Made by a program: the position numbers and the translations under genes. The notes beneath the pieces were generated by a model. That model did not search any database. It was not told where the DNA came from and saw only the letters and a list, made by a program, of their open reading frames with translations. Positions 144-50,870 of a stretch of DNA of 64,000 nt are shown one piece after another. Origin of the DNA: Closterium sp. NIES-65 (Eukaryota > Streptophyta > Zygnematophyceae > Desmidiales > Closteriaceae); assembly GCA_948144175.1 (NCBI GenBank), contig CANXME010000547.1, positions 27,867-91,866 of the forward strand. The letters run 5' to 3'. How positions within the stretch are numbered: position 1 is the first letter of the stretch; every line of letters starts with the position of its first letter.

Positions 144-1891
144 CCGCTATGAACCAGCTCACCAAGAACCTGGCGTGTGAATGGGCCAAGGATGGCATCC
201 GGGTGAATGCAGTGGCGCCGTGGTACATGGCAACAGACCTCGCCAACCAGGTGACTACATTCCCCCATTCCTTTCTCCCATCCTGTGTGGTACCCTTCAT
301 TATAAGCAACCTCTCTTGACTCCCCACGCATTCTGTCACACTTTGCTGTCGAATGGGCACAAAAGAACCTTGCATGTGAATTGGTCAAGCAAGGAGGGCA
401 TCCGAGTGAATGCAGTGGCGCCATGGTACATGGCAACAGACCTCGCCAACCAGGTAATGAGGGTAACCTGGTAACCACATATAAGTGCCACCCATTCAAT
501 CGCACCTCTAGCTGCTCAGTGGGTCAAGGAAGGATGGCATCCGGGTGAATGCAGTGGCGCCCTGGTACATGGCAACAGACCAAGCATTTTCTGCCGATGT
601 CTGACGCCGATGGCAAGGGTGGGAGTCACTTTTGAGAATTCTCAAAAGTGTTCAAGGGTGAACGCTTTTCTGCTGATGTCTGACGTGTAATGAGTCGAGT
701 TTTGAGTTGACTCAGAACTCGACTCACTTTTGAGAACTCTCAAAAGTCTTCAAGGATGAACGCTTTTCTGCTGATGTGTGACGTCGATGAGGAGGTTGGG
801 GGAGCCTCAGGAGGCAGCAGCTGCTGTGGCGTTCGTGTGCCTGCCTGCCCCTCCCCCTTCCACTAGGCCAACCAGTTCCCCCCTGTTATCTTTCCCCCAG
901 TCCCAGTTCCTCCTTCCCCACCCCTCCCTATTGCATCGGCCAATGAGAATCCACACTTGACGAATAGTGTTTGCTTTTTTTCCCGAACCACTCTTCCCCA
1001 GGTGCTCAAGGACCAGGCGTTCTCTGCTGACGTCATCATTCGAACACCCATGCGCAGGGTGGGGGAGCCTCAGGGGGCAACCAAGCCCCAACCCATGCCT
1101 TTGTTTTCTTTCAATTCATTTGCTTCCCCAGGTGCTCAAGGATGAGGCGTTCTCTGCTGACTTCATCAGTCGGACGCCCATGAGGAGGGTGGGGGAGCCT
1201 TGGGAGGCAGCAGCAGCTGTGGTGTTCATGTGCATGCCTGCTGCTTCCTATGTGTCTCGGGGATGACTCGGTTCACCAGTTGACTCTCGATATCCTTTTG
1301 AAACAACAATTGGTCCTCTCCTCTCATCATCATCCCCACCCACCGGTGCTCAAGGACGAGACGTTCTCTGCTGACGCCATCAGTCGAACGCCGATGCGGA
1401 GGGTGGGGGAGCCGCAGGAGGCAATGGCAAATACAGGACCACTCTTTCTTGCATACCACATCATGCCCCATTACTACTCGTGCTCCAATCGTTATTCCCA
1501 GGTGCTCAAGGATGAGGCGTTTTCTGCTGATGACGTCAGCCGAACACCCATGCGGAGGGTGGGGGAGCCTTGGGAGGCAGCAGCAGCTGTGGCGTTCATG
1601 TGCATGCCTGCTGCTTCATACGTGTCTCAAGGATGTGTCTCAAGTTGACTCACCATTAGCATTTAAACCTCTCAACATGGTCCCCTTCCCACTCAGGTGC
1701 TCAAGGACGAAGCGTTCTCTGCTGACGTCATCAGTCGAACACCCATGAGGAGAGTGGGGGAGCCTCAGGAAGCAGCAGCAGCTGTGGCGTTCATGTGCCT
1801 GCCGGCTGCTTCCTATGTGTCGGGGCAAGTGCTGGCTGTGGATGGTGCTTTCACAGTTAATGGATTCTATCCTCGGACTGATGATGCATAG
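144..1891 (+). CDS. Tropinone reductase-like short-chain dehydrogenase (3' part of gene)
   Basis: This is the C-terminal half of a classical SDR of the plant tropinone-reductase-like group, NAD(P)H-dependent oxidoreductases. The exon at 144-250 follows a CAG acceptor and reads [20 protein letters not shown], then [15 protein letters not shown], ending at GTGACT. The last complete exon, 1697-1891, reads [55 protein letters not shown] and a TAG stop. The NAVAPWY, SRTP.R.GEP and SGQ..-VDG..-V-NGF blocks are the usual order for this family. The cofactor-binding half and the Tyr-x3-Lys site would lie before the window. Between the two exons are many partial copies of both, so which acceptors are used in vivo cannot be read from DNA. 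The family call is firm; the substrate is unknown. Confidence 0.85.
627..650. repeat. 24-bp perfect palindrome, core GAG-AATT-CTC
   Basis: The sequence reads CAC-TTTTGAGAATTCTCAAAA-GTG. It separates two copies of an SDR exon fragment (GCATTTTCTGCCGATGTCTG upstream, CGCTTTTCTGCTGATGTCTG downstream). Confidence 0.9.
699..747. repeat. Two adjacent imperfect palindromes
   Basis: TTTTGAGTTGACTCAGAAC (from 700) and TTTTGAGAACTCTCAAAA (about 728-745) lie together between two further copies of the same SDR exon fragment. Each centre differs by one base from TCGA and AATT respectively. Confidence 0.8.
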
Positions 1892-1974
1892 GCTGCAAGG
1901 CTGCTAATAAGAGTGACGAAAATCAGATCAGGAATAGGTGAAACCATGTGGCGTGGTTGTGGTGGTGGTGGTGT

Positions 1975-2365
1975 CTCAAGAGGGAGCCGCAGGAGGCAGC
2001 AGCAGCTGTGGCGTTCATGTGCATGCCCGCTGCTTCCTATGTGTCGGGGCAAGTGCTGGCTGTTGATGGTGCTTTCACTGTCAATGGGTTTTACCCTCGA
2101 ACTGATGAGATGATGCATAGCTGGGTTCAGCCTACAACCATGCTTACAAAAAACTTAACACGAAAACAAAAGATGGACAGGGATTGGTGGAACTGTGTGT
2201 TGAGGTGATGCCTAGAAAACGGAGCCTCAGGAGGAGACAGCAGCAGCTGTGGCATTAGTGTGCCTGCCAGATGCTTCCTTAGGTCGGTCGGGTTAACTGG
2301 TGACGGTTCACGGTGCTTTCACCGTGAATGGGTTTTACCCTCAGACTCAGTCCAATTATGCATAG
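1975..2365 (+). repeat. Downstream partial copies of the last SDR exon
   Basis: After the stop codon at 1889-1891 the end of the last exon appears twice more. The copy at about 1985-2120 is well preserved ([20 protein letters not shown], then NGFYPRTDE). The copy at about 2220-2365 is decayed. The first could serve as an alternative 3' exon end; the second looks dead. Confidence 0.75.
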
Positions 2366-2369
2366 TTGT

Positions 2370-48698: not shown

Positions 48699-48739
48699 AG
48701 GGTTTTGAGGGCTTTGACTGGCCTAGGCTGAAAGTGTCT

Positions 48740-49250
48740 AGATGGGCATATGATGGGGGGAGGCCACTGCCTGCATTGTTGCATACCTGGTGTGCCGGAC
48801 ACATGGACGGATGTACTTTTCTACCAGCATGAAGAGCGATAGGTTTCTTGTGAAGTATGCAGCTGAGTGAAGGGTGCTGAGGGCTTTGTTTGGGCTAGGC
48901 TGAAAGGGTCCAGTGGAGTGCATGACGGGGGGAGAGACTGCCTGCACTTCTTCTTAAACGGTGTGCCGGACACATGGACGAATGTGCTTTTCTACCTGTG
49001 ATGAGTCGATTTTTGAGTTGACTCAAATACCGGGTGTGCCGGACACATGGACGGATGTGCTTTTGTACCAGCATGAAGAGCAATAGGTTTCTTGTGAAGT
49101 ATGCAGCTGAGTAGCAGTGGTAGGGACTGATTGCAATGCTGCTTACCAGCTGTGCCGGATACGTGGGCCGACGAGACGCGACGATGCTGTCTACACCACC
49201 ACGAGGAGTAAATAGCTTTGTTGTGAGCAATGCAGCTAAGTAGTGGCAGG
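48740..49250 (+). repeat. Decayed copies of the TBL last exon after the stop
   Basis: Fragments like GACTGCCTGCACTTC-TGC ... CCGGTGTGCCGGACACATGG ... TATGCAGCTGAGT recur at about 48765, 48930, 49032 and 49130. A TTGA-centred palindrome (TTTGAGTTGACTCAAA, 49012-49027) separates two of them. These lie beyond the coding end. Confidence 0.8.
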
Positions 49251-49489
49251 AGTGCTCAACAATTGACTACACTTGTGCGGGTACGGGTGTACGGGGCTGG
49301 ACACATATCGTACTGGTACGGTATGGTTGGTAAGCTGATGGTACTGCATCTACAGTGCCACAAAGAATGATAGGTTCATCATGTATATTCCATGCTTAAG
49401 AAATGAACTACCCGTATATATAAACTCGGTGTTGAATTCACTAAATAACAATTTACGAGGAATGGATTGGCAGGGTAGCACCAGCAGCG

Positions 49490-50870
49490 ACACCAATTTA
49501 ATATAATCATCACCACCACTGTCACCACCACTGCCACCACCCGTCCAGGGATTTCCCATCCATGATTCTCCACATACTCTCGGTGCAACCCCTCTCTCCT
49601 TGATGCGTTACCATGTTACTGCCCTCACCACCACCACCATCACCAGCATCACCACCACTGCCACCACCCATCCAGACTCTTCCCATCCATGATTCTCCTC
49701 ATCTCCTCCACATACTCTCGCCGCAGCCCTGCTTTCCTCGCGCCTTTGAGCAACAACCCGCGGTAGCGAGCAGAGGGGGGCAGCTCCTTGCGAGGGGGGA
49801 GGAACGAGGGGCTCTTGGGGTTGGCGCGGAGGGTTAATGCCTGGTGCAAAGAGGGGTTTGGGGGGGTGGGGGGCGGTTGGGAGAGAGTAGGACACCTTGC
49901 TCCTTTGAGCTTCAACCTGCGGTAGCGAGCAGAGGGAGGCAGCTCCTTGCGAGGTGGGAGGAACGAAGGGCTGTTGGGATTGGCTCGGAGAGTTAGGGCC
50001 TGGGATAGCGGGGGCGAGGGGAGAGAGGGGGGTGGGTTTGAGAGAGTGGGGAAGGGGGGAAAGGATGCTCCTTTGAGTCGCTTTTGAGAATTCTCAGAAG
50101 GGCAGCTCCTTGCGAGAGGGGAGGAACGAGGGGCTGTTGGGATTGGCTCGGAGGGTTAGGGCCTGTTGTAGAGAGGGGAGAGGGATAAGAGGGGCGGATG
50201 GGGGGTAGAGAGGAGAAACGGCGGAGAGAGGGGGGAAGCTCCTTGCAAGAGGGGAGGAACGAGGGGCTGTTGGGATTGGCTCGGAGGGTTGAAGGCTGGT
50301 GTAAGAAAAGAGGAGGGGGAGGAAACGGGAGTTGGGTGTGAGAGTAGGCCCGAACCAGAAGAGGGAGGAAAAGTAAAGGCACTCCCGTTCTTAACTCCCA
50401 TCCATTCTTCTCCTCATCTCCTCCTCCACATCCTCTCGCCGCAACCCCGCTCACTTTCCTCCTTCACCATGTTATTCCCTCCACCACCACCACAATCACC
50501 ACCACTCTCCACCACCCATCCAGGGATTTCCCATCCACTCTTCTCCTCATCTCCTCTCCTCCACATCCTCTCGCCGCAACCCCGCTACGTTGAAATCACA
50601 TTCGAGAATTCTCAAAAGCCATCTCCTCCACATCCTCTCGCCGCAACTTTTGGGACGTCTCAAAAGTCGCAACCCGGCTACGTTGAAATCACTTTTGAGA
50701 ATTCCCATAAGTGATCTCCTCCACATCCTTTCACCACAAGCAACCCCGCTCGTTTTGAAGTAGTGTTTTGAGGCGTCTCAAAACACTTCAAAAAAGTGAT
50801 CTCCTCGATATTCTCTCGCCGCAAGCAACCCCGCTCTCCTCGCTCCGGGTAGTTGGCAATCCATGCTAGT
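49490..50870 (-). repeat. Copies of the GGCT-like last exon, with a palindrome cluster
   Basis: On the minus strand the exon start (TTAACCCTCCGAGCCAATCC ... AAGGAGCT) is repeated at about 50900, 50295, 50165 and 50003 before the complete copy at 49840. The exon end (TGCGGCGAGAGTATGTGGAG...) recurs at 50440, 50570, 50640, 50720, 50810 and 49590. Palindromes at 50081-50100, 50601-50617, 50646-50667, 50691-50712 and 50762-50787 lie between copies. Confidence 0.85.

Follow-up and report, generated by a model that had tools for sequence, protein, structure and literature searches.

Short palindromes between long direct duplications in the nuclear genome of Closterium sp. NIES-65

We analysed a 64,000-nucleotide stretch of the green alga Closterium sp. 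NIES-65 (the window; G000:C547:27867-91866, contig CANXME010000547.1) and the assembly to which it belongs. The window contains a family of short palindromes. Each measures about 20-60 bp, and its palindrome is perfect or nearly so. The core is TTTTGAG followed by GC, TC, AC or AA, mirrored, and the outer arms vary. Most copies lie between direct duplications of the adjoining DNA. Our preferred explanation is that the palindromes are ultra-short, non-coding selfish elements of the nucleus. They probably insert with target duplication, the proposed route being capture at staggered nicks or gaps followed by fill-in. Coordinates below are window positions unless a locus (L) or contig (C) is given.

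The palindrome core and its outer arms

An earlier note, made from the letters of the window alone, had described about two dozen such palindromes and proposed a genome-wide search. That search found the exact core TTTTGAGNNNNCTCAAAA (TTTTGAG-NNNN-CTCAAAA) 30,327 times in the assembly (874,075,685 bp, 2400 contigs). The reversed control occurred 4 times. In the window there are 9 exact cores, compared with 0 in 100 dinucleotide shuffles. Allowing two mismatches gives 24, in agreement with the earlier figure. The ten examples listed then all exist, though some are imperfect (630; 48293/48316).

Further counts were made in a 234-kb sample consisting of the window and 17 stretches of 10 kb. Known matches guided the choice of 11 of these stretches; 2 lie beside the window on contig C547, and 4 come from other contigs. 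Hence, core densities in the sample do not equal genome averages. An unbiased scan of the sample identified 73 perfect palindromes with arms of at least 8 nucleotides. The core is present in 57 and a core-like sequence in 1. One shuffle of the sample yielded 2 such palindromes.

The four central letters are GCGC, TCGA, ACGT or AATT, all self-complementary, in 40 of the 47 exact cores. The remaining 7 have a centre one change away from these. The same four centres occupy 85 of 103 cores with up to two mismatches. As an outside control we used chance matches to the core in viral contigs; among those listed, 2 of 120 had self-complementary centres. In the 234-kb sample, half-sites of the four centre types were paired across a 4-nt centre in 136 of 155 cases. 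We therefore rejected the core as a terminal repeat of a longer transposon. All six elements that we chose for folding form hairpins (z -4.0 to -11.3). The window has no match to an Rfam family at gathering scores, so a known RNA family was also rejected as the identity of the palindrome. ARAGORN found no tRNA in the window.

Some copies extend to palindromes of about 35-60 bp with the form CACGTGT-N11-TTTTGAG-NN, mirrored. These are mostly of the ACGT class. At offset -18 exactly, 19 of 198 arms match at least 5 of the 7 letters of CACGTGT; other offsets gave 1-10 matches (10 at -28, otherwise 1-5). In the assembly, GTGT-N11-core has 1676 matches and the control 0. Were the four letters independent of the core, arithmetic predicts about 240. 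Among the matches listed, N11 varies by subfamily (TTGAAGAAGTG, AGAGAGGGTGT, GATGAGTCGAT-like and others), and AG recurs at N11 positions 5-6. The palindrome sequence is common to unlinked loci, with subfamilies recognisable beyond the core. For example, other contigs share a stretch of about 46 bp with the element at 46314.

The two arms of a copy were compared in 86 non-redundant rows of 116, with arms shuffled among copies of one centre class. At outer position 1 the arms agree in 72% of copies, compared with 46% when dealt among same-class copies. At position 2 the values are 52% and 34%. Both exceed all 500 shuffles. Three non-array copies among the matches listed have GTGT on both sides; in these, 10 of 11 letters are equal between the arms. 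Hence, the outer arms vary from copy to copy, yet the two arms of one copy tend to agree. Neighbouring cores are not of one class beyond chance (0.207 of 145 pairs, against 0.256 shuffled). The source therefore does not look local, and local donors were rejected. The four self-complementary centres, the longer variable arms and the array form described below all go beyond the earlier note.

Flanking duplications and empty sites

We defined an abutting duplication as a local alignment score of at least 15 with both gaps no longer than 25 nt. By this definition, 34 of the 47 exact cores in the sample have an abutting direct duplication. The fractions are 52/75 for cores with at most one mismatch and 63/104 with at most two. 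Random positions gave 78/1053, and decoy words gave 3/79. Positions shifted from the cores by -600, -400, -300, 300, 400 and 600 bp gave 14/79, 25/86, 21/74, 9/79, 14/89 and 17/88, respectively. These shifted controls are raised because genes here are full of tandem duplications, such as a 130-bp unit repeated 8.7 times at 46877-48002. The excess at cores persists over them. Among the chance cores listed from viral contigs, 0 of 115 had a flanking duplication scoring at least 15. A looser count, taking any flanking alignment with a score of at least 20, gave 72% of 103 cores and 25% of 585 random positions. Within the window, 19 of the 24 cores have a duplication within 31 nt on both sides, which bears out the earlier description of the flanks as mostly direct copies.

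The duplicated segment, A, was measured at the 46 sites left after removing repeats of the same A and A segments holding core words. Its length is 16-96 bp (median 35) and not one fixed short value. There is no strong base preference at either end of A, where the nicks would lie. Weak leanings are a T as first base after A (21/46) and few adenines at two positions (3/46 each). The inserted letters are sometimes the palindrome alone, as in ACTTTTGAGTCGACTCAAAAGT, and inserts are mostly 20-42 nt. Identity between A copies ranges from 0.83 to 1.00 (58 rows, array members included), and some duplications are 100% identical. This range suggests events of many ages, and insertion has probably long been ongoing. 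A blind scan for A-insert-A returned at least 837 rows, at least 67 with a core. It is dominated by satellites and provides leads only.

The direction of the event was examined by constructing the sequences expected of the empty site (pre-A-post) for 71 sites, a set that counts array members and allelic loci. These were searched against the sequence at hand. There were 57 spanning matches, mostly to a 28-bp satellite (L017). Some of the spanning matches contain palindromes themselves (L035 against L026) and one is the allele of window 30177 (L039). Paralogues spanning the junction were found at 3 of the 71 sites. For window:49011 they are 48719-48868 (84%) and 48566-48698 (80%). For L019:1299 they are 1780-1924 and 2032-2176 (77%). 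For L023:7164, the clearest case, they are 6758-6826 (90% over 69 bp) and 6922-7000 (84%). The empty paralogue has A once and no palindrome; the filled site has A twice with the palindrome between. Hence, the palindrome arrived together with the duplication. The event is an insertion with duplication of a 16-96 bp target. Separately, the 28-bp satellite forms an array beside a palindrome insertion at L017:3186-4650, and the insertion's flank is itself a member of the array family.

Arrays of the form A(-pal-A)n occur at L018/L019, L021 and L026. Contigs of the assembly occur as allelic pairs, and stretches of the window are 97-100% identical to C1616 in the main alignments. At 30079-30291 the C547 haplotype has A-pal-A, while on C1616 the same register contains three palindromes or more (L039). 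The probable allelic pair C1083/C1759 has 4 and 3 exact matches listed, a count in which a mutated copy would be missed. In one case an insertion is nested. Here (L023:567-700), a palindrome with its own duplication of about 28-30 bp lies inside the arm of another.

Sites in the window

Core 630-647, of the AATT class, is in an insert at 607-665 between copies 587-606 and 666-685 (95%). These copies are just 20 bp long and about 20 nt off the core. A long-palindrome insert follows at 687-723 (core 700-717), between copies 626-686 and 724-784 (93%). Next to it, a core with exact arms and the centre AACT (728-745) has no abutting duplication of its own. The insert at 3193-3212 (core 3195-3212) separates copies 3109-3192 and 3213-3297 (85%).

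The 22-bp palindrome ACTTTTGAGTCGACTCAAAAGT (29118-29139) lies between copies 29044-29117 and 29140-29213 (95%). A GCGC-class palindrome (30175-30195) lies between identical 96-bp copies, 30079-30174 and 30196-30291. Four cores at 32062, 32123, 32171 and 32225 occupy 32059-32242; three have abutting duplications, with identities of 0.88, 0.98 and 0.77. At 33906-33941 the arms of the inserted palindrome continue into the start of the duplicated segment (copies 33856-33905 and 33942-33991, 96%).

Further along, a degenerate or half core (43281-43316) marks a tandem duplication with copies 43204-43280 and 43317-43391 (87%). An AATT-class insert at 45325-45357 has 18-bp copies at 45307-45324 and 45358-45375 (94%). 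The long-arm ACGT-class element at 46297-46334 (CACGTGTAGAGAGGGTAT-core) lies between copies 46224-46296 and 46335-46407 (93%). Two GCGC-class cores, 48293 and 48316 (48285-48337), are enclosed by one duplication, 48234-48284 and 48338-48388 (98%). The insert at 48997-49032 has copies at 48960-48996 and 49033-49069 (95%). Finally, 50581-50793 holds four cores (50600 AATT, 50648 ACGT, 50693 AATT and 50766 GCGT) interleaved with duplications within 50555-50836.

Three other regions were noted. At 46060-46168 there is a 109-bp non-palindromic insert, ending in half an AATT-class core, between direct copies of about 22 bp. The genome has 18 matches to this insert, among them several probable allelic pairs, and it is possibly a longer relative of the palindromes. 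At 42438-42700 a segment is present in three copies. The second of these continues into a fold-back palindrome, TTGGTAACAAATTTGTTACCAA (42542-42603), whose right arm is an inverted copy of the repeated segment. The tandem duplications at 43883-48002 have periods of 130-146 bp, among others, reach 8.7 copies and apparently comprise exon plus intron. The gene here seems to be dissolving into arrays.

Genes in the window are split into exons, and separate open reading frames (ORFs) match parts of one prenyltransferase domain. Copia elements lie at about 8.8-25.5 kb and a gag-protease ORF, gypsy-like by eye, at 54906-55910. Of 545 matches to residues 700-1200 of the copia protein, the 120 listed are all named Closterium, which points to a Closterium desmid as host. 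The best match with full coverage is 95% identical and from Closterium sp. NIES-53; others listed are from NIES-54, -64, -65, Naga37s-1 and Yama58-4. The copia- and gypsy-like stretches 8847-25488 and 53686-58700 are free of palindrome cores. Likewise, none of 108 sampled cores is inside the 28.4 kb of transposon-like coding sequence, as identified by similarity to the window's transposon proteins. The transposons may be younger, or insertion may prefer genes.

Explanations and related systems

How might so small an element insert? The element would enter at a staggered double-strand break, or where two nicks are offset by 16-100 nt, and would show little preference for particular targets. Filling in of the single-stranded stretches on both sides would then generate the long direct copies. 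A single strand of the palindrome pairs with itself. Hence, one copied or released strand could form an insertable duplex, as a hairpin or self-dimer. Such self-templating would also keep the two arms alike. Candidate carriers are hairpin DNA or RNA, and the enzyme probably acts in trans, coming from the host or from some other element. The earlier note offered a tiny insertion sequence with long target duplications as one of two readings. That reading is the better supported, by the empty paralogues at 3 of 71 sites, the unlinked copies, the subfamilies and the nesting. Because 20-60 bp cannot encode a transposase, "insertion sequence" cannot here mean a transposase-encoding one.

Several observations weigh against this explanation. 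Between haplotypes, 20 cores (9 in 28500-34500 and 11 in 43000-51200) show no presence or absence difference apart from copy number at 30177, as judged from alignment coordinates and not letters. The aligned lengths are near equal (1893/1894, 4422/4405, 2184/2183, 2013/2022 and 4194/4205 bases). Twice, one A segment has palindromes of two centre classes in successive copies (L018:6156/6215; L035:60-190). Random insertion does not predict this; hot spots, or palindromes exchanging sequence with each other, are suggested instead. Arm symmetry from outer position 3 onwards falls within the shuffle range (0.51, against a maximum of 0.53), and copies of one array on C134 have unlike arms. Abutting duplications are missing at 13 of the 47 exact cores in the sample. 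In the window, 5 of 24 cores have none (728, 31735, 32225, 50082 and 50693), of which 728 and 50693 sit in the second copy of a neighbour's duplication. Half-palindromes also occur at duplication junctions (43181-43391).

The main rival is retroposition, which we judge possible but rather unlikely. Here, a LINE or Penelope-like reverse transcriptase would copy RNA into a nicked target, the template being a hairpin RNA or the terminal part of a longer one. A second nick 16-100 nt away would produce the same geometry as fill-in. The variable length of the duplications (16-96 bp at 46 sites) is consistent with this. One arm is often shorter than the other, although the palindrome hides orientation; at window 32123, 46314 and L016:3844 the left arm is long and the right short, as one-sided truncation would leave it. 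The rarer 109-bp insert at 46060-46168 also fits. However, we noticed no poly-A or constant 3' end, and with 136 of 155 half-sites paired the core is unlike the end of a long element. The duplications are longer than those of LINEs, and it is not obvious why an RNA should have self-complementary centres.

Template switching provoked by a hairpin was the other proposal of the earlier note, and we consider it improbable as the origin of the sites. Stalled replication would copy a palindrome, from elsewhere or pre-existing, and return upstream, so duplicating A around the hairpin. This yields A-pal-A directly, in a region full of other tandem duplications and with a fold-back palindrome of local sequence at 42542-42603. 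On expectation alone, downstream returns (deletions) should be equally frequent. Template switching gives no reason for one constant core, nor does it account for a constant palindrome where paralogues of the site are without one. As described above, centre class is not shared between neighbours beyond chance. Furthermore, six comparisons of arms with flanks at the 46 sites revealed no general similarity; microhomology was absent in five and the sixth, right arm against pre-flank, had the smallest P (0.01, unadjusted). Two sites were suggestive of fold-back copying of local sequence, which we rejected as a source of outer arms for want of such general similarity. Template switching by the hairpin may explain later expansion of A(-pal-A)n. 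An artefact of assembly or library, such as an adapter-like palindrome, is barely credible. Perfect short palindromes with centres resembling restriction sites do look synthetic at first sight. Yet sites of the two compared regions are also present on the second haplotype contig, 97-100% identical in the main alignments, and copies are mutated: duplications abut 63 of 104 cores with up to two mismatches. A nested insertion and arrays exist, and an artefact would fall anywhere, including the 28 kb of transposon coding sequence that holds 0 of 108 cores.

Returning to insertion with fill-in, a broader claim can be made with more reserve. The palindromes could, tentatively, represent a type of selfish DNA that is new to the nucleus: a genome-wide family in which one palindrome of 20-60 bp, with no ends distinct from its middle, makes up the entire element. 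The family would spread as a single copied strand that is self-complementary. Captured at staggered breaks, it would have duplications of 16-100 bp written by gap filling, and would seed A(-pal-A)n minisatellites at thousands of sites.

In the open-access literature, the part that is searchable, we found no description of a nuclear counterpart. Palindromic elements are known from organelles. Those of the Volvox carteri plastid are 14-79 nt long and form hairpins, most with one constant motif, TCCCCTTTAGGGA, around the loop (PMC2670323). The organelle palindromes of Volvox occupy intergenic and intron DNA, are often inserted into one another and are regarded as selfish; nuclear copies, about 0.06% of nuclear DNA, are termed inert transfers (PMC2670323). 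The word "duplication" does not occur in the main text of that paper as available (PMC2670323). The Closterium elements resemble these in size, hairpin folding, constant loop motif with variable paired stems, and nesting (one case here). They differ in being nuclear, in numbering tens of thousands and in their long flanking direct duplications. Residence in an organelle does not fit a window with copia elements, a gag-protease ORF, prenyltransferase ORFs and a second haplotype contig, nor do inert nuclear copies fit duplications of which some are 100% identical. Yeast mitochondrial GC clusters (GC42 and others) are 42-nt palindromic mobile DNA with copy-number variation, merger and shuffling (PMC4478555). 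Their mechanism is undecided and the putative target duplication is the dinucleotide AG (PMC4478555). Size, palindromic form and unsettled mechanism are shared with Closterium. In contrast, GC clusters are mitochondrial, GC-rich and have the AG duplication, compared with 16-96 bp here. In the available parts of the two papers, neither nuclear activity nor long duplications are described for Volvox palindromes or GC clusters. Nuclear location and long, variable duplications set the Closterium elements apart from organelle palindromes.

Allomyces mitochondria have double-hairpin elements, which are mobile hairpins of variable sequence that keep their pairing. They are organellar and have two hairpins, and are not known to carry long duplications. 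REP/BIME sequences and Rickettsia palindromic elements are bacterial, short and present in many copies, often in small arrays, and depend on proteins in trans. HUH enzymes mediate REP transposition, which is not known to make a target duplication. Miniature inverted-repeat transposable elements (MITEs) are non-coding and multi-copy, with short target duplications, longer bodies and terminal repeats. A MITE, or another DNA transposon with terminal inverted repeats, was rejected because duplications in the 234-kb sample have no one fixed short length and half-sites are mostly paired rather than ending longer elements, the rare 109-bp insert with a half core apart. Replitrons, also multi-copy, have direct terminal repeats and target duplications of 2-8 bp, while Helitrons make no target duplication (PMC10741241). 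Both were rejected, since duplications here are 16-96 bp. Unlike MITEs and Replitrons, which have longer bodies, the Closterium element is one continuous palindrome rather than terminal repeats, and its duplications are longer. Variable target-duplication length is a likeness to LINE and SINE retroposons, though the Closterium duplications are longer than is usual there. Plant tandem duplications after adjacent single-strand breaks arise from offset nicks and fill-in, giving direct copies of tens of bp. That process is not known to insert a constant palindrome.

Organelle palindromic mini-elements have been known for decades and their mechanism is unsolved. The question becomes directly testable in Closterium, whose genome offers some 30,000 exact cores and empty paralogues, has both haplotypes assembled and can be set beside several sequenced sister strains. 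Palindrome insertion is also a simple origin for part of the short tandem duplications and minisatellites found in the genes of this alga. The elements also show how small selfish DNA can be.

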